DNA from: Polytrichum commune
Lineage: Eukaryota > Streptophyta > Polytrichopsida > Polytrichales > Polytrichaceae
DNA length: 64,000 nt
Direction: 5' to 3'
Assembly: GCA_950295325.1 (NCBI GenBank)
Contig: OX485808.1
Coordinates: forward strand, 2,546,501-2,610,500
Part shown: piece after piece, positions 18,747-51,279 of the stretch
Layout of the letters: every line of letters begins with the position of its first letter
Position numbering within the stretch: position 1 is the first letter of the stretch
Program-made: the position numbers and the translations under genes
The notes under the pieces: generated by a model
Seen by the model: the letters and a program-made list of their open reading frames with translations, nothing else
The model's database searches: none
Told to the model about the DNA's origin: nothing

Positions 18747-19389
18747 TACACTAAATAATCCCTTTATTGTGGGTGAGAAACCCTTTATTGTGGGTGAGAA
18801 AGTATCATGAACCACTCTGGTTGTTTAGCCAAGGTGAAAATAACATGGGTCCGACACCCTAGATCTTCCCCTCAATCTTCCTCAAGATTCTCAACCAACA
18901 TCTTACATCAAATAAAATAGTCACCTTACATCAAAAGGAGCCTAATATAGAATTTTTGTCCACATCAACTTTTTGAAAAAACAACTAATCTAGTCCACAC
19001 TCGGGGGGTTCACTGGCGAAAATCATAGAACAACGTGCGATAAAAAATAGGGTCCAATATATTCATTGTAGATAAATTTTGTAAAAAAATGTACATGTAA
19101 AATAGGGGATTTTAAAATAGTGAAACATGTTTACATGTAAAATACCATCACATATAATATTTTCAAGCTTTTTACATGTAAAATACCATCACCTTATAAT
19201 CTTTTCTGCAAGGTAAATAACCCCCCCAATAAATAGGTCCCGAACGCACGTGTATGCAAAATATAAGAGGGAGTGAACCCCCCGAGAGTCCACACCAATT
19301 TTAAACTAGAGATTTGACGTGGGTTAGAAGTTAATGTGGATTCTATAGAACTACTATGGCCCACACTAATAAGACTTTGTAGTATAGTT
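18747..19389 (+). mobile_element. CACTA-like family D, copy D1, split by element H1
   Basis: The left end TACACTAAATAATCC and the right end (gtagtatagtt, degraded) bracket sequence that matches D2 (20495-20847) once 19000-19286 is removed: shared landmarks include 'gggtc(c/g)gacaccc..gatctt'-like words, 'gacgtgggttagaa..taatgtgg' and 'cccacactaa'. A 21-base unit starting CCCTTTATTGTGGG is duplicated head-to-tail at 18760-18780 and 18781-18801. There is no coding sequence, so it is non-autonomous. Confidence 0.55.
19000..19286. mobile_element. hAT-like MITE family H, copy H1
   Basis: The 287-base element has perfect 15-bp terminal inverted repeats, CTCGGGGGGTTCACT at the left and its reverse complement at the right. 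It is flanked by perfect 8-bp direct repeats AGTCCACA at 18992-18999 and 19287-19294. Subterminal 'acgtgcg' words occur inside each end, as in the other H copies. There is no coding capacity. It is inserted in CACTA-like copy D1. Confidence 0.88.
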
Positions 19390-20239
19390 CAAAATCTCTA
19401 TCTAGACTCTCATCAAGAAGAAGACATCAAATTAACTTCCAATTTCACTTTATATAGAAATACAACGGGGGTAATTTTGTGCGATGTTTGTGCATGACTT
19501 TACTTACTTCTCTTCTCTCAATTCACTTGAATATGTCTAAGTGTTGATATTATAATGTAGTCCATTTTCTTTCTAAGCAAAACCATGAACAAATCTCCAT
19601 TTGTATGATATACACTTGCCTCAAAAGGCATGCTCCTTTGGGCCATTGTGCTCCAAAAGAATTTCTTATTCTTTGTGGGTCACTTCTAAGCTATTACTAT
19701 TGGTCCGGTTATGTGCTGCTATTGACTCTACATAAGAAATAATTTATTAAAAAAATCATATTAAGAAAATACTAATCTATAACTTTGCATGTGAGTTTCA
19801 ATTTTTTGTGAGACAATAAGTAGCAAGAATCCATAACATTATTAAGCAACTAGTTGATGGTTTTTTTCCAAGAAAAGAGGTTATAATTTCAAAAACTGTA
19901 ATAAATTACTTGTCGAAAACTCTATAGTACATGGTTTGAGTGCTCCCATAAATAATAAATCCAAGAATTTTAAAAGAAAATTATGTTTGACGGATACTTG
20001 ATCCCACGGAACATGGCCAAGGAGTTCAATAATGTTGTGTCAAAACTATAGACAAAGCTACGTAATAATTTATATCAAATTATATATTGAATGCAAATAG
20101 AAAAAACCAACACTGGCATATTTGCATGTATTCAAATCTTTCAAGTCCGGCATGTCATTTGTGTTCGACATGATGAAGCTAAGGATGTTGAGTTCAACAT
20201 GCTAGTTGTTGTTATTTTCCCTTAAAATGAAAATTTCTA

Positions 20240-20242
<3 letters not shown>

Positions 20243-20288
<46 letters not shown>
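20243..20288. repeat. (GA)23 microsatellite
   Basis: A perfect GA dinucleotide run of 46 bases. Confidence 0.95.
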
Positions 20289-20290
<2 letters not shown>

Positions 20291-20494
20291 TGTGGCTCTC
20301 CGGACCTTTAAGGTTAAGGGTCAAATGTCGAAACATACTCTTTGTAAACAATAATTTTAAGAATAAGAGGGAATTGACAATCCCAATGGGCATGTCATGC
20401 AATTAAGAGCATGAGGATGATGTTGTTTCATCTAGTAACTTATAGTTACTTGACTACCAAGGGGGTGTCGTAACATTGACAAGCTCTTGTTAGG

Positions 20495-20847
20495 TACACT
20501 AAATAGTCCTATTAGTGTGGGCAAAAAATTAGCATGGGCCGCACTAATTTTTCTAGTTAGAGTGTAAATACCTTGGGTCCAAGACCCCGGGTCTTCGCCT
20601 GAGTCTTCATGAAGACTTCTAACCAAACACATGAATTATTAGTTATAGGACAATAGGAGCACAAAATAAAATAATCACTCACATTAATTTCCTAAAAAAA
20701 ATCAATATGGCTCACACTAATTTTCTACTAGAAATCTAGCATGGGTTGAAAACTAATGTGGCCCACATTAATTAATTCTCATTATGAGAATTAGCGTGGG
20801 CTCTAAAATTTACTGCGACCTACAATAATGTGCCTATTTAGTGTAGT
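20495..20847 (+). mobile_element. CACTA-like family D, copy D2
   Basis: Termini are TACACTAAATAGTCC at the left and GCCTATTTAGTGTAGT at the right, an imperfect inverted pair of the ACTACACTAAATAG type shared with families A and E. The interior has repeated 'cccacactaatt'/'aattagcgtggg' words in both orientations and no open frame. It is the uninterrupted counterpart of D1. Confidence 0.6.
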
Positions 20848-21216
20848 TCTTGGTATAATTTATGTCTAGTAATGGATTGCTTAATTTCATTGGACTAGAT
20901 TGGGGCCTTTGATTTTGAATCTAGTGTTGGTTAGAACTAAAATATATGGGAGTAATGGTATTTCACATTGTATTCACCTTTCCCAATGATACATTAAGAT
21001 GTATTATTTTGTTGAGCATCATATTTAAGAAGTAATAGATCCACCATGTGGTTGATCATGCGGGCACATGTTTTATGTGAATAACCATTTGGTGTTCATT
21101 GAGAAGTCAAATTTTCATTCAAGTCAAGCTAATTTTCATTCGCTTATTTCACATACTACACCTTTTCTTCCAACGCTATGTGCAACACTAAAGGTCAGTT
21201 CACAATGCACATGGGG

Positions 21217-22821
21217 CACTGGTGGGTTTTTTTATAGGATTTTGTGCACCACATGCGGCATAAGGGGTTTTGTTTAGGGGCTATTTACTTCCAAGGCACG
21301 AATTGAAGGTTCCCTATAATAACTTAATTTACTACAATGACTTATTTGTTTGCACCCTATCATTACTCATATTCCCATGCCAATACAATTTATTATAGTC
21401 TGCATTCCTTTTAAGTATTAAAAGTAATTCATGTCAATACTAGCCATTGCAAGAAGCTTGTGCTTGAGGATCGTATTACAAAACACAACAACATCATTTG
21501 ATCACATAATACAATCCCAAAATGAAAACATTGACTCCCACGTGCTTACACATCAAAACCTAATAGACTGTTTAAACCATGAAGACTACATATTCAATAC
21601 TTCAAACCGGCTGACACTAAAGCATATAGAAGACAAACACTTGCAAATATAATATTCTAATACATCAAACAACAACATCACATCACACTTGCATATCGTA
21701 CACAAACATATCAATAACTAAAATATCATGCACCACACTCATTGCAAATGTGCAGGTGCATTCACCAAAAAAAGACAATGATTATGTGGTAAAAGCATAA
21801 TACCTGCTCCATAGGAGTTTGCACATGAGCACAAAGAAAATCCTATAAAAAATTTTGACAACCTCATAATATGGCAACCTCTTGCGAATTCATAATCCCC
21901 TAGCTCCCCATTCATGCAAAGATACCATAATTCAAAACTTGAATAAATCATGATGGTGATTTGATACTCTAATATATTCCCTACCCATAGAGTAATCATC
22001 ACCAAGACAAGTCCCATGTGCCTTATACATGTAACATTGAGTTAGATGCATAAAAAACAACAAAAAAGACATGAATAAAGAAAGAAATTGTTGAAGCCTA
22101 GAATGTTCACCCATACCTCGTACATGAACCCTAATATGCATTTCTTTAGGTTAGAAACATTTTAGCTCCTCCGCATCAATCTTATCTAATGTGTATACTT
22201 TGTCAGTAGCATTATAGCTTAGGGTCATAGTATGAAATAATGCAATCCACATCAATTCATTTGCTATGGGCATGAGCATATTTGATTTTGTTATGGCCCG
22301 GATGTTTCATGTAATATCATAGCATCAGTTTGATATAGGAAATGTGAGGATTTTGCTTCCCATATCCTTCGACTCGGGTCAAGAGGTCAACTGGCTACCT
22401 TAATACCCCAAATGTATGCCCATTACATTGCTTCATGGCCTACGCCCTCCCAAACTCCTAGTAGAGAACCAAGCTCCAAACCCAATGAGCATTCCATAAG
22501 CTAGGGAAGATGGCCAGTGACTACACCACATTTTTCCATCCATATTTCAACGTTTGTCGAATGAATTTTTCATCCATCCAACATGCAACATGCTTAGTGC
22601 ATGCTTATAACCATTTCATATTAAACATAAACTCTAGGATCCTAAACTTCAACCCCTATAATTAGGTCTACAACAACTATTGCCCACATTTTATACCTAT
22701 CTACTTTTAATGGACCCTTCATTATTTGGAGTTCCTTTATCATTTTTATTTCAAATGAATTTAATCCTCCCTATATTATGTCACGCATCATTTGTAAAAT
22801 GCATTAAGTGACCCACCCGTG
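21217..22821 (-). mobile_element. hAT-like family H, copy H2 (1.6 kb)
   Basis: This is the longest H copy. Its ends are CACTGGTGGG...(left, diverged) and AAGTGACCCACCCGTG (right), flanked by ACATGGGG at 21209-21216 and ACATGCGG at 22822-22829, an 8-bp duplication with one mismatch. Compared with H4 and H5 it is inverted: the region near 22640-22800 matches the left ends of H4 and H5, and 21225-21400 matches their right ends. The central kilobase is extra sequence with no transposase that I can recognise. Confidence 0.75.
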
Positions 22822-22827
22822 ACATGC

Positions 22828-23080
22828 GGTCCTAAGTCCCAAGTCCCACATGTTAGCAAGTCCTGACATGGAGGCAAAGTTCCAACTCTTGAGCCTCAAG
22901 ACTCTAATTATCATTAGTTGGATCCTTATTATTTTATGCAAAATATTTGTGGGACTTGTGCTGAATGTTGGAGCTAGGCTTTTGCTTGACCCAACTCCCA
23001 ACACAAGTCCCAAACCTCACCTCCAAAAAGTGATGCCATGTAGGCATTCATGTCATACTTGGGACTTAGGACTTGGGACC
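22828..23080. mobile_element. Small TIR element with GGTCCTAAGT termini
   Basis: A 21-bp inverted pair (left starts GGTCCTAAGTCCCAAG, right ends CTTAGGACTTGGGACC) matches at 19 of 21 positions and encloses about 210 bases without coding sequence. The outer sequence GTTCACA at 21198 and its complement at about 23088 suggest that the true left TIR extends further out and was split by insertion of H2. Confidence 0.6.
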
Positions 23081-23099
23081 CCGTGTGAACCGGCACTAA

Positions 23100-24015
23100 T
23101 TCAATGCATACACATTAATTATGAACCAACATTAATTTATACTTACAAGTGATATAATATAATTGATATCCAACTACATCTACAAATTCTCAAAAAAGTT
23201 GGACTACACTATATTACATGTCGTTGCATAATTATCATAGCAATATCCGGTTGTATGATTGTGTTCCATTCTATATTTAGCATCTGACATGGACGTCCAC
23301 TACCTTACCTTCACGGAAAGAAACTTAGAAAATAAAAAGAAATTGACACCGGTACGAAGAAGGAATAGTGCCAGTATGGATAGTATGAATATTGTGAATA
23401 GCGTCGGTATTTTCAATGATTCCCATAAATAATGCCAAGATTATAACTCCACCTAATTTTCCAAGTGTCGGTTGAATGTATGAATAGTTTACTTTGTTCG
23501 AGGACCCATGAAATATAATTGACATATTCCAGTGCCATGGAACCAACCCACAAGGCTTGATAATGTTATGACAATCTCCTCATATTATTTTTTATTGAAG
23601 AAACTAAGATAGAAACTTATTATGTATGGTTGGGACCATTGATACAAGTGTTGATAGATTTGTACTAGGGCAACTAAGTTGGTAGACAAATTTGTTAATA
23701 CAAACATGGAAACTGCATGGTTCTAAGCCACAACTTTTGCTCACAATATAAATAGCTCCTGCACATAGGATCTTTATATAACTAAGAATCGTGTATAATC
23801 CACAATGTCTAGATTTTAGAAACCCTAGGAAAGTGTTTGGGTGTTTGTGAAGTCAGTGTTTGTCATATGGCACTCGTGAGGTCATCGTATGCATCACACT
23901 AAACCATTGTTTATGGATGTTCGATTTTTAATATAAGGTGAGTTGGGAGGCGACAATTCAAATATAAACATTCATGGAGTTGGTTATATTTCATATGTCA
24001 TTTCACCGCTACTGT
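23100..24015. other. AT-rich DNA, nothing recognised
   Basis: No gene, TIR or LINE similarity was seen in this stretch. Confidence 0.3.
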
Positions 24016-24755
24016 CCTCCCTCTTTAGTATGACACATTTGGGAAACACGAGAAAAGTTGTATTATCGAGGTGTCGTCTTCTCATTAACATGACAAATGG
24101 CGTAAAGTTGTTGTATTATTGAGGGAATATGAAAACATAAGTAATATGAGCTTCAAACTATATACAACAGGTTTAAGCAATATAGATGGTATGAAATAAT
24201 AATTCATAACTCCAAACAAATATGAATATTCTCAAGAACTCTTGAAATAGGAGTCCAAAGATCTCTAATGTTGCCTACCCAAGTTAGCAACTGTCATCTT
24301 ATCTAAATTCCATACTAACTTTTGAAAATTAATAATTTCATTAACACCAAAATGCAAAGAGTTCTCTAATAAGAAACTAGACAACAATGATGCATGACGT
24401 TTAGCATCAAGATATTGGTGATACTATATCACCCGTGTACCAGGCAACATACTAAGCAGGAGGCCACTCTAACCCTAACCATGTCCATTCTACACTAGTA
24501 ACCCTAATTATCGCTAAGTTCCCAATTATAAGTGAAGTTCTCAAGTAGATCTCAAGTGAAAATGAATGTATTTTAGATGTACATAACATAGATGAAAGGA
24601 ATTTTAGCATTAATTGCCTCTTAAATATGACAAAGCGGAGATTCTAAATGTCGTATTATCGAGTGTCGTAGTCGTATAAAAGAGGGAATTTTGAACTAGA
24701 AAGTTTGGTCGCACAAAAATGTGTCGTAATATCGAGTGTCGTATTAACAAGGTTA
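24016..24755. mobile_element. Probable TIR element with 'tgtcgtattatcgag' ends
   Basis: The left end (CCTCCCTCTTTAGTATGACA, then 'gttgtattatcgaggtgtcg') is inverted at the right end, where 'gtgtcgtaatatcgagtgtcg' and 'gtcgtattatcgagtgtcgt' occur twice about 90 bases apart. This arrangement is typical of plant DNA transposon ends with subterminal repeats. The interior has no recognisable transposase. The exact ends and the target duplication are not resolved. Confidence 0.45.
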
Positions 24756-25086
24756 GACTATAGGATTGTGTGCATCATACCATGCCACTTGTCATGATCA
24801 CAACAATCACATCTTCTTCATTCAAACATGAACCATGCCCTCACCATGTCACACGTGTGTTTGTTGACCAATATGGTATAACACGACAAGGGGGCAATAG
24901 TAATAATAGACCTTTATATGTTGGTTGCCAATTCATCCCAATTTAAGCTCACCTGACTAATTTGGGATCTTTGAACCTAATTCAAGAATTAAGTTAGCTT
25001 AAAATAAGAAAACCGTAGGCTCTAGAGTAGAAATCAATGCTTTCACCCTTCCATCCCCCTGTTCGTCCTCCCCCTCGGTAGATGTT

Positions 25087-25594
25087 TTTTTTTTGGCACA
25101 AATTGAGAAAATCAATTGCAAAGGAAACCAAAATACAACCAACCCGGGCGAGCCAGCGCAGCCCGAGTGGAAATCAAGAATTGATGCTCATCTGAGGTCT
25201 ATCCATCCAAGTGACAACTAAATTACTCCGAGTCACAATAAGGTTTTGGCCCCCCACATCATGTCAAACTCTTTAAGGACATCATGACAAACCACGTCCG
25301 GGGCCTCTTCCAAATCCTTCAGCGCCCATTTCCACTTGATCCTACCATAATCCTCCAAGGCGTCCCAAACGACTTGACGTGTTTTCTCAACGGGTTATCG
25401 TAGGTTGTTGAAAACCAAATCATTCCGTTGGCGTCGGATAATCCAAGGAATACCACTTCTAACAAAGAACCAGATACGATTGAACTTTCTAAGTGTTTTG
25501 CACAAAGGTTGATCGAAGAGAGATTGCATCATAGAAAATGACTTTTGCGGGCCAAGATTCTTCTTCGTTGCAAAGAGTTGACAAATGATGTTGG
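25087..25594 (-). mobile_element. 5-prime-truncated LINE with 17-bp target duplication
   Basis: The minus strand encodes the C-terminal zf-RVT-type tail of the same LINE family as 52.2-57.4 kb: NLGPQKSFSMMQSLFDQPLC and PWIIRRQRNDLVFNNL match NLGPMKSFSMMQCLFDQPIC and AWIIWRQWNDLVFKTL there. Its 3-prime end is marked by 'aatttgtgcc' followed by an A tract (T run at 25085-25094). The flanks are CCCCCTCGGTAGATGTT (25070-25086) and CCCCCTCAGTAGATGTT (25595-25611), a 17-bp duplication with one mismatch. This is a textbook truncated target-primed insertion. The reading frame continues upstream for about 75 codons before truncation. Confidence 0.88.
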
Positions 25595-25611
25595 CCCCCT
25601 CAGTAGATGTT

Positions 25612-27957
25612 AAGAACATTCACCCTTTATTGATCACACATTGCTCCCTTGTAATTCTAAGCACTTGAATTCTAAAGTGGTCAGCCTTTCACTTCAGACA
25701 ATTCATGATCTACGCTATTCTACTAAAGTCCACATTGATTGAAATAGTATTACCCCTTTGTTAAGATGAATTCACACAGTGTAAACTCAATCCCATGTTC
25801 TTACAAACCAATTTATCAATAGGTTCTACCAATTTCATTGAAATCATGAATCAAGTTTACTCTATAGACAACCAATTTCACTTGAGCTTTCAACCTTTTT
25901 CATAGCATGTTGTGAACAATTTCATGATTTGGTGCCCATCTTCACAACTTCACAAAATCAATTTCATGAACTGCATAATTTTATTTCACAAAGAATGGTA
26001 CATTATGTATAAGATTCTCCCAGTTCCTCCCCACAACTAAGGTTGAGGCATCTATAACCTATAAAATAAGAGAGTTTGTAAGGGGAATGCAAATTCTTAG
26101 TCTTTTTTTTCATGAATATGGAAATTGCTACAATTTTTTTAAGTGGTAAAGTTTATTAGAACACACATCTAGCAACGTCACGAAACCTCCAAGCCAATTT
26201 CATGAAATACAACAAGCTTTTGTAGATGCTAGACACATCTTCTTCCACTTGCCATCATATAGTCCATTTCTCAATGTTGCAGAATGAGTACTTGGCCACA
26301 TCAAAAGTTACATCCGATGGACTGTTCTCCTAAATCATTGAACGTTATTAGGTGCCACATGTCAAGTCGGTTTAGAATAATCATAAACTTGTTTAAAAGG
26401 TTCATGAAATTGGTAGAACACACTATGGTAAACATTGGTTGGAAGGTTCATGAACTAGCTTGGAACCTTCATGAAATTGAGTTTGCGCTTTTGTGGAGTC
26501 ATCTTACAAAAGGAGTAATTTAGTCATCTACCAATGAAGGTGGTGGCATTCTCAAGAATGAATTTAACTTATTATGTGTACTTATTATGCAAGATTATAG
26601 GATGTGGGTTTTAGCACCATCTACTTTATAGTGTTGTAGAGGGCTATTAAGTTCAACAAATTGAGTGCCTTAATATGATTCAATGGAGGAAGTTGTGGGT
26701 TCCAACGAATGCAATAATGGCATGACATTAGAGTTGTTTGTAGAGTAAAGGAGCTAAAACCATGGGATTTGTCCCAAACCTCGAGTTTATGAGGATTAGC
26801 ACAAAGTAACCCAAGTTTCCCTAATGCTTAAATTATCATACACAAAGAGTGGTTTTGGGTTATTAAAAGCCCACTTTCTAGATTGTCCTACTAGAATGGG
26901 TGGGCCAAATTAGCCTTGCATAGGTCGATATGGGATTTAAGACAATGGGTCCCATGCGCATACCATGTGTTGGTTTTGAGTCATCTACCAATGAAACTTC
27001 AAGCCCTTGCAACTTTAGCATATAAATTCAATTAAGACATACTTTGGTGCGTCAAAACCCACGTCAATTGTTGAATTCATAAAATCCTTAGCAAACAACC
27101 CCTAAAGGCCAAGATGAACAATTATGTCCGAGGAGTCATCACTGACCAACAATAACCTTTAAACTTTGGGCATGTAAAGGACTAAAAATTTGTGTGAACA
27201 ATTTCAAGTCTACAAAGTCTTTATCCATACAGCCAGATTTACCATACGAGGTGCCGATTCCCTTTAACGAGCCTATGAATAAGACCAAACCATTCCAGAC
27301 AAATTTCGAGACGCTTTTAACTACAACCTTTAAGAAATGAGAATGACGAGGTTTAGCACCATCCACCTAGTTATATAAGGCTGGGGTGAACCAACCTGTA
27401 CACTGGTTCCTTGGAGGCAAGGGTTTAAGCATCCAACAAAGAACGAGTGTATGGGTTAGTTCACCCAAATCGTGATATAGAAGCCTCCACAACCCGAGCA
27501 GTAAACCACACGAAATCTATCGGACACTTTAACACAACGCTAAAACTTGACCTCCACAAGCCCTTGTAACATAGTAGTAGTAGGAGGAGGAGTACGGAAA
27601 GTGAGCAGGGCCCCCACGATTTTCCTTTTGCAGTAAGAAGAAGTACCGTGGCATCTGTCGCCAAGGCAAAGGAAAACTCGGAGCAGCAATGGTCAGGCTT
27701 TGTTTGCGGTGGCCAGGACAGTCACTTGTTTGCTTGCGGAAGAAAAGAAAAGAAAGAAAGAGAAAGGGGGAAAATGAATAAATAAAAAGGCTTGAAAGCT
27801 GTGTGTTAGCGCTAGAGGTCCGTCCGTAAGCCCCCATGAGTGAGGTACGGCTAAATTAGAGCGGCCCCAACTAATAAGTTGGCTATGGAGTGCAACCCGA
27901 GAGGATCCCAATTTCCCCATTCCCAATGCCCAATCTCAACCTCCACCACCACCTCAG
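25612..27957. other. Intergenic AT-rich DNA with one weak open frame
   Basis: No gene is supported. At 27146-27340 the plus strand is open for 64 codons to a TGA and reads SIQPDLPYEVPIPFNEPMNK and TKPFQTNFETLLTTTFKK, which looks protein-like but has no start codon and no recognised family. A TATATAAGG word at 27371 and a GC-richer patch at 27540-27700 might be a decayed promoter or exon; I cannot support either. Confidence 0.25.
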
Positions 27958-30548: not shown

Positions 30549-31473
30549 CCATGATGAACCATCCCACATTTTTACACATAGCCTCAAAATCCTCTACCTA
30601 CTCATGAGTGCACAATTGATCAATGCACAAATCAAACACCCCACACTACATAATAGCCACTTGGATAAATATCTCAAGGATCCATGGTCCAAATGTTACA
30701 CTTTCACACACAAACCATCAGGCTCCACAAAGTCTACGCCCATCCTAATATTGAGGGTAATGAACAAATGGACAAACTAGCCAAAATGGGACGTAAGCAA
30801 GATCACAAAAACGTTGGAGCACCACATAGACACACACACACCCCACACTACATACCACTTCCAAAAGGACTAGTGGCACTCTATGTATGAAACACCAAAA
30901 TAAAACCCATTAGACACCTCGACAAACACATCCATAAATATGACAAATATATAACCTAAGAATCTTTGCAAAGTAAACACATCAACTCCACATATGGCTT
31001 GGAAATATAAACATTGATAATGAGTTGTCAAATAATTTATGAAAAACCACAACCATAATTGATAAACAAAAGGCATGCCTCATCAAATTTGAACTAGACA
31101 ACACATGGGCCATGGAAGTAAGAAAACTATCCTTTGACAAAGAAGCCTATCCTTCACGAACATGCCGAATTTGTAGCTCTTCCGATGCAAATACATGGTT
31201 ACGTGTAATACTTACATGCAAACAACAACACATCCATGCATTAATAACAAAAGACATAACAAAGTGGTTTGGGAGCTAGGAAAGCTCATTATATCAAATA
31301 CAACTTCAAGACACTACACATACATAGATGTTGGTACTCACAATGGACTACCCCAAGATAACACAATATTGCCATGGGCTACTACCATGTACTTGCAGTG
31401 CCCAAAAATGTCATTGTAGTGCTAGACTCAAACCCGATAGACTACCCATACAACAACCCCCCCACTAGTAACT

Positions 31474-31882
31474 CACGGGGAGGTCACTTCATTGTCAAGT
31501 TGACACCACGTGCGGACAAAGTTTGCTACCCCTATATTACATGCCATATATAATTTTAAAATTTATGATATTTTTTCTACATATACATAACCATTGATAG
31601 TATCTTTTGAATACTATTTTTAAAATTTTAGTCATCTTTGTTTTTTTAGTAATTGTTTTAGTTCAATTATGTGTCATTCTAGTTAGAAATGATATGTTTT
31701 ATGAAAAAAACAAATCATCAAATTTAGTTACCACTTTTGACTATGTCATAGGTACTGTGTATATCTACTCATGAAAACAATTTGATAAAATTTTGACCCA
31801 TTTTGGTGGTGCAACTTACCAAAAGAAGATTTTTTTTGGTCGCACATGGTGTTCAACTTGACAATGGAGTCATCTACCTGTG
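31474..31882 (+). mobile_element. hAT-like MITE family H, copy H3
   Basis: The 409-base element starts CACGGGGAGGTCACTTCATT and ends with the inverted counterpart (CACAGGTAGATGACTCCATT read on the minus strand). The inverted similarity extends about 50 bases, including 'attgtcaagttga'. It is flanked by perfect TAGTAACT at 31466-31473 and 31883-31890. It sits in the LINE relic: removing it and one duplicate joins the words for PYNNPP with those for TSNLTHTF, as expected for the LINE tail. Confidence 0.88.
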
Positions 31883-32383
31883 TAGTAACTCCTACCTCAA
31901 ATCTCACCCATACATTTTATAACATTTACATACTGAAATGATAGATTGTTTGAAAAATCCCTTGCCATAAGGACTACATAATATCAACCACTCATCTATA
32001 ACATCATTACACAAGAACGGAAAGTAGCCCCCCTCATGGTCATTGTAGCCAACGCAAGGGCAACCACACACATGTTGGCATCAATGAAATGCTTAGAAAC
32101 TAAATCAAAGATCTCAATTCCCAAAATAAAAAACACATTCAACCCAATTATCACAATTGCCACACAAAATGCACACTATGTACTCATTCATAAAAGACGA
32201 CTAGAAAACCGAGAATATGTTGCCGACCTCCAAGACCCACCTCTGATCATCACACCAATGATTTCGTTACTTTATTGCCAACTAGGGTAGTGTCTATCCC
32301 CTAAAAAGGGTGAGGTGGTTCTTCATCCAAAGTTATTGCCTTTGGGCATGACTATTGATGTTGTACAAATAAACACTCTATTC

Positions 32384-33034
32384 CTCATGTGGGACACTTA
32401 TTACATTTTACGAACAACGTGTGGCATAATATAGGGAGGATTCAATTCATTTGAAATAAAAAATATAAAGGAATTCCAAATAATGAAGGGTCCATCAAAT
32501 GTAGACAATGTCGTTGCAAGTAAATTAAATAGGTATAAAATGTGGGCCATTACTCATTAGTGGAAATAATGTAGGGGTTGATTTTTAGGACCCTAGGATT
32601 TATGTTTAGTATGATTTGTTTGCAAGCATATTGCACGTGGGATGGATGAAAAATGCATTCAACATATGTGGAAAAATGTTTTGTTGTGTTCTATAATATG
32701 ATCCTCAACAACAAGTTTTTTTGTAATGGTTTGTATGGAACTATAGTTACAATACAATGTATGGACATGATTTTTATATGTATGCAATGGTATGTGTGGA
32801 CATGGTGTTATGTACATACAATGATTTTTCTCATTACTTAAAGGGATTAAAGACGATAATAGTTGCTTTGGATGGAAAATATACGTAATGCTAGGGTGCA
32901 CACAAATAGGTCATTTTAGATAATTAGGTAATTATAGGGAACCTCTAATTCATGTTTTGGAAGTAAATAGCCCTTAAGCAAATACCCTCCACCGCACATG
33001 GTGCACCAAAATCCTATAAAGTGCCCTACCCATG
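32384..33034 (+). mobile_element. hAT-like family H, copy H4
   Basis: Right end AAGTGCCCTACCCATG and left end CATGTGGGACACTT form a diverged inverted pair of the H type. Flanks are CTCTATTC (32376-32383) and CTTTATTC (33035-33042), an 8-bp duplication with one mismatch. The interior matches H5 over most of its length ('ggcataatatag.gagga', 'gaaataaaa..tataaagga', 'ccaaataatgaagggtcc', 'aaatgtgggccatt', and 'tgcaccaaaatcctata'-like words at the right). There is no transposase. Confidence 0.8.
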
Positions 33035-33165
33035 CTTTATTCACCTTGGTCTCGAACGCCTTAACATTGGAATTCATCTTCTCATTCTATACAAGGTAGG
33101 AGCATCTATTGTTGTGCAACATGACCTTATAAGGGCTAAGTTCCATGTGTTGGTGCCGGTCCATT

Positions 33166-35861: not shown

Positions 35862-35900
35862 AACTAAGCGGTTGGTTATCCCCGTTCACTGCAACATAAT

Positions 35901-38519: not shown

Positions 38520-38529
38520 CTTATTTACA

Positions 38530-42035: not shown

Positions 42036-42079
42036 TAAGGTAGGATGAGTTAGAGACTTTTGTGGATGAAGCGAGACAA

Positions 42080-42275
42080 TGTCCGGGAACATTTTTGGGC
42101 GTAACCAGTTGAGATCCAAGTTTTCTCAAGCAAAACCGGTCACATGTTGACATCTGTTGGTTTGTTCCTCGTTGATTTGAGTTACATTCTTTAAATTCCT
42201 CTAAAACGATGGGTACTTTCCCTAAAATCTTGGACTTCAACCCTTGTTTCAAAATCAACGGGTTCATTGTGAAGC
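42080..42275 (+). repeat. Repeat family C, copy C3
   Basis: Begins 'gggaacatttttgggcgtaa' and follows C1 through 'cacatgttgacat', 'gatttgagttacattc' and 'cttggacttcaaccc' to 'tcaacgggttca'. Diverged, non-coding. Confidence 0.6.
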
Positions 42276-42865: not shown

Positions 42866-43172
42866 ACTACACTAAATAGGATATTTAGTGTTATTACCAC
42901 CCTACTGTGCTCAACACTAATTTTCAATTCTTTGACAATTAGTGTTAGCCATAAATGTGCCGCTACCTTCCCTACTGCCACCTCACTTATTTTATTAATT
43001 TTCATATCCTTACTAACACTAAATTCAAATATGTAACTTCCACATATGACCATACTTGATATTTAGTGCTTGAATTTACATTTAATGTTACTTACTTTCA
43101 TAGAGTTATTGATATTTAGTGTATGCATTCGTATTTAGTGTATCAAACACTAAAAATCCTATTTAGTGTAGT
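42866..43172. mobile_element. CACTA-like family E element
   Basis: The terminal inverted repeats are 27 bp with one mismatch: left ACTACACTAAATAGGATATT, right ending AATCCTATTTAGTGTAGT. It is 307 bases long with no coding capacity. The interior differs from families A and D although the first 13 bases are shared. Additional 'tagtgtta' and 'aacactaa' words occur subterminally. The target duplication was not resolved. Confidence 0.75.
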
Positions 43173-43419
43173 TGTGGCGCATTGTGAACCCCATCACCCT
43201 AATTTATGCACATGATTAATACACTTTGATAGTGCAACCAAGGATTTCCCCAACCCCATCATGTAGTTGGATCTAGACTTGGATCGATTTAATGTTGATC
43301 TTACATGCTTAAGAAGAATGTAACTTTTGAAACGCATGTATCCAAACATGACCACCTTCCATTGAATCATGTATGTAACTTCCGAATAATGTCTCCAAGG
43401 ATTCATACATGTTTCGATT

Positions 43420-43535
43420 CTCATAGGGTTTAGAGCAAAGGTCGTGATTAGGGTTTGTTTAAGGCTAATTAGGTTTAGGGCAACGACTGAGATTAGGGTT
43501 TGTTTAGGGCTAATTGGGTTCAGGAGCACTGCATT
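43420..43535 (-). repeat. 45-bp tandem repeat (15-codon period)
   Basis: Units begin at 43444 (gtgattagggtttgttt) and 43489 (gagattagggtttgttt), with a degraded unit before them. Because 45 is a multiple of three, the minus strand reads a 15-residue repeat, SPKQTLISVVALNLI then SLKQTLITTFALNPM, in an open frame at 43194-43547. It might be a scrap of a repeat protein or a chance open minisatellite. Confidence 0.6.
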
Positions 43536-43597
43536 TACAGAGGCCACGCAGAGTGTTACAATACACCAATGTGTAATTTCACAAACGGTTATAACAT

Positions 43598-43898
43598 ACT
43601 ACACTAAATATGATATTTAGTGTCACCAATTCTAATTGTCTCGCTCAATACTAATTGTAAACCGCGGTATAGTGTCACCAACACTAAATGTGAGTCCAAC
43701 ATTATTTGTCATTCCTTGTAAAACTTTTGTGGGATTATAGATTTACAGCGTTGCAATTACCGTCACTTACCAAGTGAATTTTCATCCAATTTTTAATCAC
43801 CCATGACAATATTTCATCACAAGTTGCTGACAAGAGAAGGTAGGGTTTGAGACAACGGATGAACTCATCATCATCCATGACAATATTTGTCCACGGAG
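43598..43898 (-). mobile_element. CACTA-like family A, copy A4 (inverted, truncated)
   Basis: The plus strand starts ACTACACTAAATATGATATT and runs as the reverse complement of A2/A3 up to the 'catgacaatatttgtccac' region, then stops abruptly where family C copy C4 begins. The outer 5-prime end of the element is missing. Confidence 0.65.
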
Positions 43899-44420
43899 AT
43901 ATTTGGCAAGATCAGTTTAGGGTTTATTCTTTCCAAGTCCGATTGGTTACATGTTGTGTGAACTTTCAGTTTTTTTATTTATTAATTCGAGGTATATTCT
44001 CTATATTATTCTAGAATGATTGATAAGTTTTGTGAGGTCTTGTTCAACTAGGTTATTTCTCAAATTCACCGATTCATATTTGTAACTTAAGGTACAAAAT
44101 TATCATGAAGTCTCGAACTTGAACCGTGTTATTTCTCAAACTCGCCGGTTCATATTTGTAACTTAAAGTACTAGATTATCATGAAGTCTCGAACTTCAAC
44201 TGGGTTAATTCTCAAACTCATCGGTTCATCTTTGTAACTTAAGGTACCAAGTTATCGTGAAGTCTCGAACTTCAACCGGGTCATTTCTCAAAATCAACCA
44301 GTGCATCTTTGTAACTTTAGGTACCAAATTCTCCTGAAATCTTGAACTGCAACCGGGTAATTTCTCAAAATCAACCAGTTCATGTGGACTAACTGCCAGC
44401 TCTCCCCGGTTCTCGCCCAC
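43899..44420 (+). repeat. Repeat family C, copy C4, with expanded array
   Basis: Starts 'ggagatatttggcaagat' and follows the family C order, but the 'cttgaacttcaaccgg' segment that occurs once in C1-C3 is repeated five times here (see 44038-44398). It ends 'aactgccagctctccccgg', as in C1. Confidence 0.65.
44038..44398 (+). repeat. 76-bp tandem array, five units
   Basis: Units begin 'tcttgttcaac', 'tctcgaacttgaacc', 'tctcgaacttcaact', 'tctcgaacttcaacc' and 'tcttgaactgcaacc', each followed by 'ttctcaaa' and, in all but the last, 'tttgtaacttaagg'. Unit lengths are 73-77 bases; the last unit is partial. Confidence 0.85.
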
Positions 44421-44431
44421 ACTTACTAGTG

Positions 44432-44460
44432 GCAGTGAACGGAGTTTGCCCGTTCACTGC
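44432..44460. repeat. Perfect 11-bp hairpin
   Basis: GCAGTGAACGG at 44432-44442 and CCGTTCACTGC at 44450-44460 pair perfectly around a 7-base loop. It lies just outside the end of C4; the word CCCGTTCACTGC also occurs at the end of C2 (about 35880), so it belongs to the family C end. Confidence 0.7.
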
Positions 44461-44640
44461 TGCTCACCACCAGTATATGTGGGCGGCCTATATGACCAAG
44501 TGTCGCTTGAGCCTCGGTCATAGGACCATTAGTTGGACACCATGGCGCTCAAAATTGTCTTTTGGAAGGAAGGCAATCCCCATGCCACACGTACCACAAT
44601 ATTGCCAGTCTGCAATAGAGTACACATGCTATATCAAAAG

Positions 44641-44667
44641 TATTATTATTATTATTATTATTATTAT
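44641..44667. repeat. (TAT)9 microsatellite
   Basis: A perfect 27-base trinucleotide run. Confidence 0.9.
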
Positions 44668-46271
44668 GATGTAAGGCCAACAACCCTGCCACCGTCACCG
44701 ATTGCAATGAGGAAATCGTCAAAATTAAGTAAAGCAAAAGCTGATGACTCTTTGGGCATTTAATCGATGACCCGTCGGTGAGTGTGCTTTGTTTCATAGT
44801 TACTCTTTTCACCACAAGCATATGAGTCCTCGGAGTTTGATATACATTATTGGACCTATGTCGCTAGAATATTTGTAAAAAGTCTCATTATCAATAGGGA
44901 CCACCTCCGACACGAGATCATATCACGTGTCATGTAGCCCTACTCCGTATATCCGCTTTGGATCGTTGTTGTGATTGAGGTCTAGCATCCCTCGTTCACG
45001 CCATTTGCATATTTTTCCTACCGACGCATGACAATTTTCAAGGAATCATATGTTGGTAGTGTTTGGTGACATGCAATTGCTTGCAACGTGCATTGACGTT
45101 GACTTGTTCGAGAAACAAGGGTTTGATTTGGAGACCTAGCATTTGGAGTCTCTCTACTCCATAGTTGGAGTTTACACCATGACACATGTTCTTGATGATG
45201 TCACTACTGGGATTGTGGGTATTACTACAGACTTGCATTTGACATAATGGTCCTTTGTGTTGAAGTAGCCGTTTGTCAAATGGTCACTTTCACACCAAAG
45301 GACCATTGAGTCAATTGCAAGTTTGTGTTTGAACCCACCATTCTAGTTATAGAAAGATTTGCCCACTCGTGCACATATACAGTTACTTTGTAAGCTCCCT
45401 TGTCATTTGGCCCCGCGATCATGGTAGATGCGCAAAGCCTAAGATAATAATGAGAACCGAAAGCCTGAGACAAACTTTCAGGCATGTCAAATAGCTTGGA
45501 AAGTTCCCACAACAAATATATATATATATATAGAGTAAAGGCTAAAGAGTCTACCATTTTGTTTCAAAGAATAACATAAATTTGCAAAGTATTTAAAGAA
45601 ACGAGCCTTTTAGGCATGTTGAATAACTATAATAAATTTCACAAAAAACCATAGACTTTAAAACCTACAAAGTGTCTACTTAATTAAACAAAAATTATAT
45701 GCAAACTACAAAAATATGCAAAGTATACAATAACTCCATGTAGTAATGGTCTAGTAACTATGTACAATAAATATGTGAAGTACTAGGTGTGTAACTCCTT
45801 TGCTCAGTGACTACACTACATATTAGTTAACCATGCATGTGATGTGGGTGGAGTTGATGGCTAAGAGCTTGGTTTAAGATCCATGAGGACCTGGGTTCCA
45901 AAAACCCCTCGCCATCCACTTCTCCTAGGCTAGCACCCTAGGTACTTGGAAACGCCATGTTGGACCCTACTTACCGGTAGATTTGACAACTAAGTACGAA
46001 TGTATTTTGAAATATTAAACAATTTACAATGAAATTAACCTTACTAAAACCATGATGAAAAACAACGAAAGTGGGCTCCACATGTCCCATGTCACAAGTT
46101 GTTGGAGTATCTTTAATGTAATACAAATAGTTAAAAAAAGAATGCAGGTCATGTGGCACATTGTGTTGGAATATCTGTAATTTAATTTTTACCACATGAA
46201 AAGTATGAAAATGACCATGGTCATTGCGATATGACCCAAACGACAACTATTTGATCAAAGGTGTTAGGTTT
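44668..46271. other. Intergenic; hairpin at 45246-45307; no gene
   Basis: No gene supported. A 62-base imperfect hairpin lies at 45246-45307 (AATGGTCCTTTG paired with CAAAGGACCATT). At about 45857-45910 the words 'tggctaagagcttgg' and 'ggttccaaaaacccc' loosely resemble tRNA A and B boxes, as in SINEs, but the B box departs from consensus. A (TA)n run lies near 45516-45531. Confidence 0.3.
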
Positions 46272-46544
46272 AGGGGCGAAGCCAAGATTTTGACCTGAGG
46301 GGGGCTGACCTCACAATATGGAAATATCCAGTGTTTATTTTATTATCAAATTTCAATACATGATCGTATTTGATTATTTATTGAGAAAATTTGGACTCAT
46401 TGAGATGACATCCCCGTATTTTTTCATAATGTCATTAATATCCAAAGATTTGGCAACATGAGCAGAGCTAGGGGGGGTTTTCCTTCAATGTCGGGGGTTT
46501 GTGCCCCCCCCCCCCCCCCTAGGCCCCCCTTGGCTTTGCCCCCT
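46272..46544. mobile_element. TIR element with AGGGGCGAAGCCAAG ends
   Basis: Left AGGGGCGAAGCCAAG and right CTTGGCTTTGCCCCCT are inverted with one mismatch and one extra base. The 273-base interior is AT-rich and ends in two G/C-run blocks including 16 C at 46504-46519. The type is common in plant genomes (short non-autonomous elements). The target duplication is unclear (GGTTTAG at the left, GGTTAG at the right). Confidence 0.6.
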
Positions 46545-46849
46545 GGTTAGATCTATTTACTATATCAATTGTAGTCATGTTAGCCCATTTTCAATACAAA
46601 TGAAGTCATAATTGATGTCGCCTTGGCCCTACTATCCTAGGAGAGTGCATCCACACTCTGTCAGCGCCTTTCAATGAGATTGCGCCTAAAGAATTTGTGA
46701 AGCCACAAATGATGTGTTGGTTTTTTTATTATAAATTGGGACAAAGTATAGGATCACGTTCATGATTACAACTTACAAGCTTAGTTTATAAATAGGAACA
46801 AGTGCTATGATTCTAAAAGAACAAAGTTGTTATTTATAGGACATGTCTG

Positions 46850-47045
46850 GATCCAGATGATAACAAAGACCCTTTCAATGGTAAGTCACAAAACTATAAC
46901 CTCGGTGCTAATGAGGGTTTTGTAATATTTTTGACTTCCAAGTTAATTACACGCTTTATTGACAGTTTTTCTCCGAAAATGAAATCCCAATCAATTGCTT
47001 ATTTTCTCAATGGAAGTCAACATATATATATATATATATTGGATT
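46850..47045 (+). repeat. Repeat R1, copy 1
   Basis: Matches 62570-62770 in the same orientation ('tggtaagtcacaaaa', 'gtgctaatga.g.gttttgtaat', 'gacttccaagttaatt', 'tttattgaca', 'tcaattgctt'). Ends in a (TA)n run at about 47022-47039. Confidence 0.55.
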
Positions 47046-47699
47046 TTGGACCTTGAAGATGAAGTGCATTCAATATGAGTTATATGCACAAGCGGCCTTT
47101 GTAGTAAGTTTTTGCTATGACTCAAAACAACAAAACCCAAGGAACAAAGTCTCCAGGAAGACTGAGATAGTGTCTATAAGGGTTCATGTCACATTGGATT
47201 AAGGTTCTTAATAACATCTTAGGGTGATTCTCATTCTTTACTCTCTTCAATGTTACTTATCCCATTCTTTCTCTTCCTCATTGGTTCATATGTGATGGTT
47301 CCGTAGTGAGTGTTGTCTAACCTATCTTCAAGGTAGGTACTATCACTCTAAGGTTCGGACCTAATTCAGTCGTGAAGCTCAATAGCTTGGCAAATTGTCA
47401 AGTAACTCATAGGCAGGACAACATGTCCGGGGCAACGTCTTTTGAGTAACCATCTTCGTCTTTATTTGTGATGAATTATGCTTTGCATGTAATTCAAATT
47501 AATTCCAATTATACTTACTTCCATCCATCGGCAATTCTTCAAAAGACTGTAACCATCACCGCCATCTTCCGATAGACCTGGTGATACATCTCAAAGAATA
47601 TCCATTCCGTCAATACATTAGATATGTATAAATTTATCAGGCTATAACCCTTGATTAATAAGTTTTTATCATTCACAATATTTGCAAGCAAATAATCTT
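47046..47699. other. Intergenic, nothing recognised
   Basis: No gene or repeat recognised. Composition begins to change toward the pyrimidine-rich region that follows. Confidence 0.3.
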
Positions 47700-49070
47700 A
47701 TCTCACAGGGTAAGGTCTGCTTCTTCTCTCAGTCTGACTCTATAGTCATGGCTTACGTCAGCCCTCATTTTCTCTCTTGAATGGCTGGCGATAGTCGTTA
47801 TTTTGTTTACCAGGCGATATCCTCTCTCAGGGTAATTTCTTCTGCCTCCCTCTCTCTGGTAATGCCTATAGCCCTCGGACTCCTTTACTCTGGCTATGGC
47901 CCGTCAATTACTCCTGGCGATAGCCCTGCCCATCTCAGGCTTCTCTTAGACTCTACCCTCTCTGTTTATCGCCACAGAGTTTACTCTAGGCCAATTGCCC
48001 GACATCTCCCTCATGGGAGTTACTCATCTCTTGACCCTCAGCGGTCATGTCTCTTTATGCACGACTTCAGAATATGGCCTTACTGTCGTCTAATCGTCTT
48101 CACTCCCCTCTCACAGGGTAAGTGATTACCTTACAGCTTAGCGCATGTTTAATCTTCGTCCACTCACAGTAGTCTCAATACTCTCACATCTTCAGACTTT
48201 ACTCCATGGCCATTTGCCAAGAATATGGCATTCTTCACCAAATTGACTACTTGTTGATATGTCCGCCCTCGGACCTTACAGCCTATTGCCCTTCCAGCAT
48301 ACAACTACATCTTTATCTCAGAAAGACTATTGCCTCAACAGGCTTTGCCTTCTCTGAGTCCTTGACTCAATCACATTTCTCGCTCTCGGCCTATCGCCGG
48401 ATTATCACAATGTATACTTGCCCTCGTGACTAATTTCATATCCACACATACACACTTTACTACTTGCCATTTGCTCTGAACCCAACTCAATCTCCACTTA
48501 AGACGACTCGCCCCGACATTGACGACTACGACTATATTCCAATCGTTCATAGCCAACGGAATCATATCACACAATCACACGACCATTGCTCATCAAGATA
48601 ATATTTCACTCGTATTCAAATATAACATTGTGCAAGACTGAATCACTCAGTTCTTTTCTGTCTATTGCTACTGCTCCATCGCGGAGTTGCTAATAGCCCT
48701 CAGACTCTATCACAGAAAATCTGATGTCGCTAAGCCTATTGCTAACACTGGGAGACTACGTCAAATTCTACGTTGGGAAAATAGCCTTCCTTCTTCTGGC
48801 TCGCCTCCTCCTTATGACGACGAAGGAGGAGGAGACGGTTGGAGGCGATAACCGATTCTTGATGCCAATAGCCGCCAACTGTCGCTCTCCGACGCCAGGT
48901 ACAGTCGAATTGCCGGATGATTATCATCATATTTCGAAAATTGCCTCATTCGACTGGGCGATAGCCAAAAATTGGTCTCACAACCTTCAAGAATGCAAGG
49001 ACAATTTTACTTTCGAAGTCCAACGGAGCGGCCAAGGACCATGGGCTTCATCCAGATAGTAAAGGAGGCG
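47700..49070. other. Compositionally distinct CT-rich region with CGATAG/CTATCGCC words
   Basis: Unlike its AT-rich flanks this stretch is rich in CT and GC and keeps returning to variants of GGCGATAG, CTATAGCCCTC, TATTGCC and TATCGCC, at irregular spacing. The resulting open frames (114 codons at 47781-48125, 111 codons at 48724-49059) have low-complexity-like composition and no recognised domain. It may be a degenerate satellite or the body of an unfamiliar element. No TIR or LTR was seen. Confidence 0.45.
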
Positions 49071-50315
49071 TGCTTGGGGCAGGGCCCAGCCCTAGGCAAA
49101 TGTAATCTAACATGGGGGCTTCAACGACAACCCACCCAAATTTAATTAAAATCTTAAAAAAACCCTACACAAGGTTTTCTAAATAAAAATATATGGTGGT
49201 AAGTGGCAAATGAGGTTGGATGAAAGTCCTAATCTTACTTTCATCCATCAGATTATGCATGCGACTCACAATCTTCATGTTAAGAGTTGCAAATTTTCTA
49301 ATTACATTGGCTTCCTAATACGATTCACCAATCATAAAGAAAACTAACGCTATCTTTATAATCTACACCCCCGCAAACTATACGGCCAAGATAACTTATA
49401 AACGGAATATCATTATACCAATATCATAAATTTATTGGTAAAAATTGTGCACACATGCTTGATCCCCCGAAAGGGTCAAACGAGACGGTGGAATGCTTGA
49501 AGTTTTGTCCAAAGTGTGACGTCATGGAATGCCAAGCATGTCCAAAGCGCTCCAAATCTCGTCTTTTTAAATTGTCACAATATTTCGGGTACCGGTCCCG
49601 GGTAAAGCGGAGGACCGGTGGGTGAGAATTCAATCATACACTTTGTTGCATGGTTTGATTGACTCGATTCCAAGCACATGTAGGCACGTTTTTTCTTGGC
49701 AACATTCGAGGGAAATAAAATTCTTTGAAGGGGTCGTGAAAGCCCCGCATCTCCTTCACCAATTGGGGGCACTTTATAAATGATGCCTCGGCATTGTATG
49801 TGGAGAACTAACCGCTAGTTACAAATGAACCGTTGAGTTTGTGAGATAACCACCGGTTGGCGCTCAAGACTTTTGTTCGGGAAAATCATCTTCGAGGAAG
49901 CTATGGAATATATAGAGAGAAGAGAAGAAACGTTGTCCTTAGTGAGCTTATGGAATATACCCACAAATTAACAAAGAATAACCGAAATGATCACAACATT
50001 TAGCTGGTTGGACTTGGAAGAAACACAAGGATTTTGACCAAATATGCCCAAAAATCTTCTTGGATGAGTTTAACTTTAAGCATTAGTTCCACCCCTCCTC
50101 ACGTTTTTCTAATTTATAAAAAAAACAATTATTGATAGAGACAATTGAATTTTCTGCAAAAGCTCAAGGTAAATCACCCGGTCAAATTGTGTAGATCCGA
50201 TACCTAGTAGCTCATTGCCCGAAAAGGCTAGGGCATAATGAAATTCTAGAGAAGAGGCGCATATTCCCAATCAAGATCTCATCATCAATTTATAGGGAAT
50301 TGTAATTTTGATCAT
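49071..50315. other. Intergenic, nothing recognised
   Basis: No gene supported. The minus-strand open frames around 49424-49772 overlap each other and show no domain. Confidence 0.3.
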
Positions 50316-50323
50316 GTTGGGAC

Positions 50324-50885
50324 CACGGGTAGGTCACTTAGTGCATTTTAAAAACGACGTGCGGCATAATATAGAGAGGATTAAAATCATTTGAAATAAA
50401 AATTATAAAGGAATTCCAAATAATGAAGGGGCCATTAAATGTAGACAATCTCATTATAAGTAAGTTAGATGGGCATAAAATGTGGGCCATTGTTTTTTTG
50501 TAAAATTAATATAATGGCTGAAGATAAGGATCCTAGAAGGTATGTTTAGTATGTTTGCTATGGTCTCTTATGTGTTTTCTTCATAACTTTGTTTGCAATG
50601 ATATTACTGTTTGCACCCTTCTTTGTTTCCATGGTTTCCCTTAACACTCCTCAATGCGTTAGGAAGTAGATTAGCTTTTATTACTTAAAAAGAATATAGA
50701 GTACAAAAAATTGCAGTGACTTGGACAATATAAGTAATGGAAGGGTGCAAACAAATGGGCCATTTTTGAAATTTAAGTAATTATAGGGAGGCTTTAATTC
50801 AGCCCTTGAAGGTAAATAGCCCCAAAACAAAAAAAACCCCAGCCGCACGTGGTGCACAAAAATGCCTTAGAGTGACCTACCCGTG
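50324..50885 (+). mobile_element. hAT-like MITE family H, copy H5
   Basis: Perfect 15-bp TIRs, CACGGGTAGGTCACT at the left and its exact complement at the right, with perfect 8-bp target duplications GTTGGGAC at 50316-50323 and 50886-50893. The 562-base interior matches H4 over most of its length. Subterminal 'cgacgtgcgg' and 'ccgcacgt' words are inverted. There is no transposase, so mobilisation would need an enzyme from elsewhere. Confidence 0.92.
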
Positions 50886-50941
50886 GTTGGGACTGAATTT
50901 TGACTAGGCTAGAACCAATAGTCTCATGACACGTGTCTTGG

Positions 50942-51279
50942 CTCGGGGGGGGGGTAGTCATTGGTTGGAGTAGCAATATACGTGCGAACAAATGATAGGG
51001 TATTTTAAAAACATGGGGGCAAAAATTTATAATTGGACTTAAGAGTAATATAGGGTATCAAAAATGGCACTGGACATCTTTAAAGTACTATAGGGTATGG
51101 AATAATAGGGAATTTGGAATTATAAGTAATGCAAGCCAGTTTTCTATTAACCCAAAGTAGAAATTTACATAATGATAGCATGTGAAAAAAAAAAAATTGA
51201 AAGTAATACCCCCCTATAAAATAGTGGTTGTTCGCACCTATATCCTTAACTTTCTAACACACTGCCCCCCCCCCCCGAG
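50942..51279. mobile_element. hAT-like MITE family H, copy H6 with expanded G/C tips
   Basis: TIRs begin CTC followed by a G run (10 G at 50945-50954; 12 C at 51265-51276 on the other side) and then TAGT / CAGT. Flanks are perfect 8-bp repeats TGTCTTGG at 50934-50941 and 51280-51287. Subterminal 'acgtgcgaac' and 'gttcgcac' are inverted. Compared with H1 (CTCGGGGGGTTCACT), the homopolymers are expansions of the G6 in the terminal repeat. It lies only about 40 bases from the target duplication of H5. Confidence 0.88.

Follow-up and report, generated by a model that had tools for sequence, protein, structure and literature searches.

Six elements with 8-bp duplications

The stretch of Polytrichum commune DNA analysed here (64,000 nucleotides of contig OX485808.1, positions 2546501-2610500; hereafter the window) contains six transposable elements, H1 to H6, with terminal inverted repeats (TIRs) and an 8-bp target duplication on either side. 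The contig is C6 in the numbering used below; the assembly comprises 408 Mb in 64 contigs, and C1 to C7 measure 42-78 Mb each. A preliminary description drawn from the window sequence had treated the six as one hAT-like family of miniature inverted-repeat transposable elements (MITEs). Comparison with the whole genome makes it probable that they derive, as non-autonomous copies, from cut-and-paste transposons of a group with complete members, 5.8-9.7 kb long, in the same genome.

H1 (19000..19286), a non-autonomous copy of 287 bp with CTCGGGGGGTTCACT at both ends, lies between perfect copies of AGTCCACA (18992..18999 and 19287..19294). H3 (31474..31882), likewise non-autonomous and 409 bp long, ends in CACGGGGAGGTCACT and CACAGGTAGATGACT and is flanked by perfect copies of TAGTAACT (31466..31473 and 31883..31890). 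H5 (50324..50885, plus strand, 562 bp) and H6 (50942..51279, plus strand, 338 bp) are internal-deletion derivatives of an E82-like and an E87-like element, respectively, two of the complete elements described below; their duplications, GTTGGGAC (50316..50323 and 50886..50893) and TGTCTTGG (50934..50941 and 51280..51287), are again perfect. H4 (32384..33034, plus strand, 651 bp) is an internally deleted, diverged relative of E82 and of a further coding locus, L083, and its flanking repeats, CTCTATTC (32376..32383) and CTTTATTC (33035..33042), differ by one base. The same holds for ACATGGGG (21209..21216) and ACATGCGG (22822..22829) around H2 (21217..22821, minus strand), a decayed 1,605-bp member of the H5 group whose right end matches the 5' end of E82. 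H2 also encloses the frame-broken remnant of a transposase-like gene, corresponding to its C-terminal domain and detected by tblastn (22154..22451, minus strand).

All six elements thus read as first described, four (H1, H3, H5 and H6) with perfect duplications and two (H2 and H4) with copies one base apart, and their status as non-autonomous TIR elements with an 8-bp target duplication is supported. Their description as one family proves too narrow: H2, H4 and H5 are mutually alignable at 74-81% and H1, H3 and H6 align with no other window copy, giving at least four groups (H2/H4/H5; H1; H3; H6). The terminal form ascribed to them, C(A/T)CGGG or a G-run variant, is present strictly at three of the 12 ends (H3 left and both of H5) and as the G-run variant at four (H1 and H6); the other five (both of H2, H3 right and both of H4) have decayed forms related to it, for example CACTGG, CTCATG and CATGGG. 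Within 60 bp of the end, the subterminal word CGTGCG occurs exactly at six ends and with one mismatch at five, and is absent at the right end of H2. When the window was scanned for ends of the form C(A/T)..G that are flanked by a near-perfect 8-bp repeat and match each other, inverted, at 10/15 positions or more, eight pairs emerged, five of them being H1, H2, H3, H5 and H6; H4 does not pass the end filter. Each of 20 first-order Markov sequences gave 0-3 pairs.

Recurrence of the ends and of the duplication in the genome

A genome search combining the TIR with the CGTGCG word, a check proposed in the preliminary description, shows that the termini recur outside the window. Exact matches in the 408-Mb genome number 589 for the pattern CACGGGTAGGTCACTN{8,30}CGTGCG and 451 for CTCGGGGGGTTCACTN{10,30}CGTGCG, which joins the H1 end to the word; an H3-type end, with up to two mismatches allowed, occurs 3,199 times. 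The reversed control is 0 in each case. A further pattern, CACGGGTAGGTCACTR, designed to reveal additional subfamilies, has no match in the genome. Many copies are nearly identical: the best 40 of 1,490 genome candidates of the H1 group are 97-100% identical, and the best 40 of 1,927 in the H5 group 98-100%.

Duplication length was recorded in 64 copies, comprising the six window elements, 20 H5-type copies (including the long copies L001 to L004), 19 H1-type, 16 H3-type, one H6-type copy inside L002 and two coding elements. The 8-bp duplication is perfect in 49 of these and has at most one mismatch in 61, including all 16 H3-type copies fetched from the genome, and no copy has a perfect duplication at 7 or 9 bp. 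When each left flank was compared with every other right flank, none of the 4,032 swapped pairs was perfect and two had at most one mismatch. Three further coding elements are perfect at 8 bp and not at 7 or 9, which brings the total to 67 complete copies (six in the window, 56 short or mid-length and five coding): 52 with perfect 8-bp duplications, 64 with at most one mismatch and none with a perfect duplication of 7 or 9 bp. The 8-bp length given in the preliminary description is supported.

An empty site is also available. The long H5-type copy L002 (2.5 kb) houses an H6-type element between two copies of CATTTTAG. When the L002 flanks are joined with a single CATTTTAG, 50 of 50 bases match the sister copy L003 (2.1 kb), compared with 39 of 50 when both copies are kept. 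The site is situated in a short local tandem repeat.

Several other long candidates were inspected. Of the four long H5-type TIR pairs read on C1 (L001 to L004), L004 measures 1.4 kb. L001 (4.2 kb) was rejected as a coding copy, being an H5 copy with an insertion resembling a long interspersed nuclear element (LINE) and with RNase H and PCIF1_WW matches, and two long H3 candidates on C1 (2.9 and 6.8 kb) were rejected because each consists of two separate short copies. The insertion in L001 (~274-3957 of C1:35138600-35143250) has an unusual pairing of domains, with RNase H at E 4.5e-8 and PCIF1_WW at E 5.8e-10 in a neighbouring frame. Within the window, positions 30612-31418, a short way to the left of H3, are a 65% DNA relative of this insertion, and positions 53561-56535 contain plant-type LINE fragments with endonuclease-like and reverse-transcriptase-like frames, as read by eye.

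Complete elements with a long gene

L002 and L003 contain a C-terminal piece of a gene and provided the route to coding elements. The frame in L003 is 196 amino acids (aa) long and has no Pfam match; it has at least 152 matches in the genome (150 of 1,153 candidates scored), and nine of those listed fall within open frames that are 1,490 or more codons long. Five coding loci were traced to both ends, and in each of them the TIRs are related and the flanking 8-bp repeats identical: E82 (C3:23844933-23854635, 9,703 bp, duplication CATAGACT), E85 (C3:22755306-22761107, 5,802 bp, AATCTAGA), E86 (C3:22477311-22483661, 6,351 bp, AAAGAAAC), E87 (C5:50059283-50067708, 8,426 bp, GAAATCAC) and E88 (C3:50427924-50434917, 6,994 bp, ATTTCAAC). 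Their TIRs take the form C(A/T/C)CGGG..; over window copies and coding elements together, the termini are CACGGG, CTCGGG or CCCGGG plus degraded versions. The two inverted ends agree exactly over 15 bp in E82, 26 bp in E85 and 11 bp in E87; in E86 and E88, 12 of the first 15 bp agree. At the sixth locus, L083, the left end was not found within the stretch fetched.

Unbroken stop-to-stop frames of 1,502, 1,549, 1,493 and 1,518 codons are present in E82, E85, E86 and E87, respectively, and the gene is broken in E88 (longest frame 1,185 codons) and L083 (two frames). The preliminary description had proposed a search for longer copies with matching ends and a hAT dimerisation domain: longer copies with related ends and 8-bp duplications do exist, but their protein has no match to that domain. 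Since several coding copies are open and many short copies are nearly identical, activity is directly testable.

Some features of these loci stand apart. The first ~4 kb of E82 (positions 1-4083), upstream of the gene, have no frame longer than 108 codons and no alignment to L083, and are possibly captured host DNA. A TTTAGGG run is seen in L083. Contig C8 bears chlN and rpoA and therefore looks like the plastid; as plastid chlN is not known from flowering plants, this points to a non-angiosperm green plant as host.

Ancestry of the window copies

H5 and H6 are the two ends of complete elements joined together. Positions 1-230 of H5 correspond to E82 1-231 (95.7% identity) and positions 231-562 to E82 9372-9703 (93.1%), so that ~9.1 kb of the middle is gone; in H6, positions 4-168 correspond to E87 5-168 (92.1%) and 170-331 to E87 8260-8423 (87.8%), with ~8.1 kb of the middle gone. 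H4 is more diverged, matching the 5' end of E82 at 82% over 232 bp and its 3' end at 76% over 163 bp, and the 3' end of L083 at 80% over 164 bp. By blastn, H2 matches E82 at the 5' end (75% over 232), at the 3' end (78% over 193) and in the 3' part of the gene (71% over 259); its gene remnant matches L082 residues 1398-1496 in two overlapping pieces with 52% and 49% identity (tblastn, E 5e-24).

H1 has weak subterminal matches to E85 and E82 only. Because the alignments of H1 and H3 to the coding elements are short and weak, these two are linked to the others through their ends, the CGTGCG word and the duplication. Judged by the ends and duplications, H1 and H3 probably share the origin of the other copies.

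A candidate transposase

Six homologues of the ~1,500-aa protein were aligned over 1,585 columns and are 48-82% identical to the first sequence; two homologues are N-terminally partial, and one of these is also C-terminally partial. Residues D707, D826, D873, H876 (forming DxxH) and E1068, in L082 numbering, are invariant in all six, as is the spacing of 119/47/195 between D, D, DxxH and E. This pattern resembles the catalytic residues of an RNase H-type transposase with an aspartate-aspartate-glutamate (DDE) site. For the Drosophila P transposase, the residues reported are D230, D303, D339 (part of a D(2)H motif) and E531, and the insertion domain occupies 339-528 (PMC8230255). From these published residues the P spacing is 73/36/192, compared with 119/47/195 here. 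The N-terminal half contains, as read by eye in the six-homologue alignment, zinc-finger-like Cys/His sets and an RGRP AT-hook-like stretch.

The C-terminal domain (GSWW.GRVQ...FKYD.TD.QWID) is possibly of a reader or DNA-binding type. It has at least 152 matches in the genome (C3:23852985, C3:22756005 and others), many of them isolated fragments or 199-aa frames.

Whether this gene is the transposase or cargo, with the true transposase elsewhere and acting on the ends in trans, deserves consideration. Transposase activity is a prediction for this protein, and the scattering of its C-terminal part over those 152 or more places, often as fragments, would suit a passenger. On the other hand, the gene is the sole long frame in the five complete elements, in which the second-longest frame has merely 120-272 codons, and in E85 it occupies 4,647 of 5,802 bp. 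Between L082 and L083, nonsynonymous divergence (dN) is 0.11 and synonymous divergence (dS) 0.93, and the gene is under purifying selection between these two loci; the other pairs are saturated in dS. With the DDE and DxxH pattern kept as well, we consider a cargo role improbable.

Relation to hAT elements

The assignment to hAT in the preliminary description is not supported, since elements with matching ends encode a ~1,500-aa protein without a hAT match. None of the six homologues matches a hAT model, including that of the dimerisation domain (PF05699), at E values up to 10. An hhalign comparison of the new protein with the hAT proteins of this genome gives a probability of 0.15, at low sensitivity because the profiles are of low diversity and mostly built on C-terminal hAT frames.

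The genome does have hAT elements of its own, with 150 hAT-domain matches scored of 1,060 candidates. Among 20 loci fetched of the 150 listed, full-length ends and an 8-bp duplication were found in three: L047 (4,195 bp, ends CAGAGCCCAACATT) and L052 and L060 (4,794 and 4,757 bp, ends CAGTGTTGGTYTGT). L042 and L046 have shorter CAGAGCC pairs, and others, L043, L055 and L058 among them, have low-scoring or short candidate pairs; in the rest the pairs were short or doubtful, or there were none. Relaxed and extended end scans of the fetched loci gave no convincing further pair, and none of the hAT end pairs found in the 20 loci starts with CWCGGG. Four loci, L056 to L059 (C1:28932500, C7:27949300, C6:31200900 and C5:45439200), carry 94-98% identical copies of a hAT-domain gene whose product reaches 1,084 aa; GC-rich tandem repeats border the shared stretch, and no convincing TIR or duplication was found.

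The elements described here are like hAT elements and hAT MITEs in their 8-bp duplication, short TIRs, subterminal repeats and many small non-autonomous copies. The hAT terminal consensus is (C/T)A(A/G)NG; CACGG shares with it the A at position 2 and the G at position 5, but CACGGG, CTCGGG and CCCGGG ends as such depart from it. These likenesses, together with the richness of the genome in hAT domains and the fact that full-length ends are known for just three of the 20 fetched loci, so that other hAT lineages may differ, are what can be said for ordinary hAT MITEs mobilised by a hAT transposase that the genome encodes but whose full-length copy escaped detection. Against this, complete elements with these ends bear a different gene, the end-mapped full-length hAT elements have CAGAGCC or CAGTGTT ends in place of C(A/T)CGGG, and neither the domain searches nor hhalign, with its low-diversity profiles, connects the six homologues to hAT. 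Largely refuted by the coding elements, this explanation is very improbable. At a minimum, the H5 and H6 groups would be mislabelled as hAT, and the other groups probably would be too.

Proposed mode of transposition

For the coding transposons and the copies attributed to them, we propose the following mode of transposition. The encoded protein would bind the TIRs and the subterminal CGTGCG-like words, and its RNase H-type DDE site (D707, D826, D873xxH876 and E1068) would cut both element ends. Insertion would take place at cuts staggered by 8 bp, gap repair leaving the 8-bp duplication. Internal-deletion products that retain both ends, such as H5 and H6 and the more diverged H4 and H2, would be mobilised in trans. 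We infer the catalysis, the mobilisation in trans and a P-element-like fold from the features described above.

Several observations weigh against this account. Pfam searches with the six homologues up to E 10 return no transposase match, the scattered matches at E 0.1-0.6 belonging to unrelated families; NCBIfam likewise gives none, nor does the PDB, whether searched by sequence or by profile (best profile E 0.73, unrelated). The DDE assignment was judged by eye from conserved residues, their order and their spacing, without a fold, and the first spacing of 119 is well above the 73 of P. No alignable coding parent of H1 or H3 was found among the five coding elements fetched, and exact CGTGCG is confined to half of the 12 window ends. 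The census was not a random sample: its H1-type copies are the best BLAST matches and its H5- and H3-type copies are those with both ends intact, all on C1, so that it favours young copies. Its copies are also not fully independent, since the H5 copies L008 (C1:7853834) and L018 (C1:28964663) lie 21 Mb from each other, share the same flanks in opposite orientation and represent one event; the flanks suggest an inverted segmental duplication. Three of the 64 copies (L022, L029 and L033) have no 8-bp repeat at one mismatch or fewer, and L022 has GTCCAAGG on both sides provided that its first element base has mutated. Finally, no palindromic excess was found at the 52 target sites with perfect duplications, scored as single sites and not as a consensus: 110 matches were counted, compared with 134.7 (standard deviation (SD) 9.8) for half-swapped and 124.6 (SD 9.5) for shuffled sites. 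In P elements and Galileo, a palindromic target motif is described around the duplication (PMC4168063), and its absence here counts against close P kinship.

Comparison with known superfamilies

By sequence comparison, the coding transposon group matches nothing catalogued in the databases searched, and scans of viruses and prokaryotes with the protein alignment found no relative. We regard it as probably a P-like group of transposons, so far unnamed, that resides in a non-angiosperm plant. A stronger version, to which we give about an even chance, is that it constitutes a previously unnamed DDE cut-and-paste superfamily with a ~1,500-aa transposase of P-like layout, abundant here and the source of thousands of MITE ends. 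Under the Repbase rule, transposases count as distinct superfamilies when PSI-BLAST searches with them fail to converge (PMC4455052). In the open-licence literature, as far as it was covered and with Repbase outside that scope, we found no account of this group or of P elements in plants or mosses; a Physcomitrium study describes mariner-type DNA transposons (PMC7466625).

The protein may alternatively be a too-diverged member of a known superfamily (P proper, MuDR, Zisupton/KDZ, Merlin or Novosib), a somewhat unlikely possibility that is compatible with the origin proposed here for the window copies because it concerns the name only. Duplications of ~8 bp occur in hAT and P (PMC3706591, PMC4168063) and in Zisupton (PMC12730594), and the DxxH motif with a long spacer before E suits P (PMC8230255). 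Such membership is disfavoured by the lack of any transposase-family Pfam match up to E 10 in the six homologues and by the missing P-type palindromic motif. Genome searches for the KDZ domain and for the P-type RNase H domain found no match either, a weak negative because the control genomes were likewise silent.

The name matters for annotation. A 2025 survey of 207 plant genomes distinguished five main superfamilies of MITEs on the basis of duplication and TIR (PMC12550479). Because plant MITEs are classed mainly by these two features, one with an 8-bp duplication will probably be assigned to hAT. If the group is an unnamed superfamily, annotation by duplication length would file these MITE ends as hAT. 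If the P-like reading is true, land plants would have an extra transposase lineage: the list in a 2022 review comprises six TIR superfamilies (Tc1-Mariner, hAT, Sola, MuDR/MULE, PIF-Harbinger and CACTA), and P is absent from it (PMC9033089).

Beyond hAT, likenesses are found to several superfamilies. MuDR, Kolobok and Dada have a C/DxxH motif in common (PMC3706591), comparable to the DxxH here, and Zisupton has 8-bp duplications (PMC12730594). Dada differs in its duplications of 6-7 bp and in that its described families have no TIRs (PMC3706591), whereas of the lengths 7, 8 and 9 bp only 8 suits the copies here. The protein differs from those of MuDR/MULE, Zisupton/KDZ, Dada and Kolobok in having no Pfam match: neither the MULE domain nor the KDZ domain (PF18758) is matched by any of the six homologues up to E 10, and a perfect 9-bp duplication is never seen in the 64 copies.

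The remaining comparison is with the P superfamily (Drosophila P element, Galileo, 1360 and THAP9). The protein is about twice as long as the Drosophila P transposase, its first spacing is 119 compared with 73, and the palindromic target motif is missing. Homology to P or THAP9 transposases was not detected in Pfam or in the PDB, by sequence or by profile. P-element ends begin with CA, as do the ends in part of this group. Most P-element insertions have 8-bp duplications and those of the superfamily measure 7-8 bp (PMC4168063), a range into which the copies here fall. On the sequences compared, the P likeness is one of layout and not demonstrated homology: the order D, D, DxxH, a spacer of ~190 residues and E, assigned by eye here, is common to both, with 195 residues before E here compared with 192 (D339 to E531) in Drosophila P.

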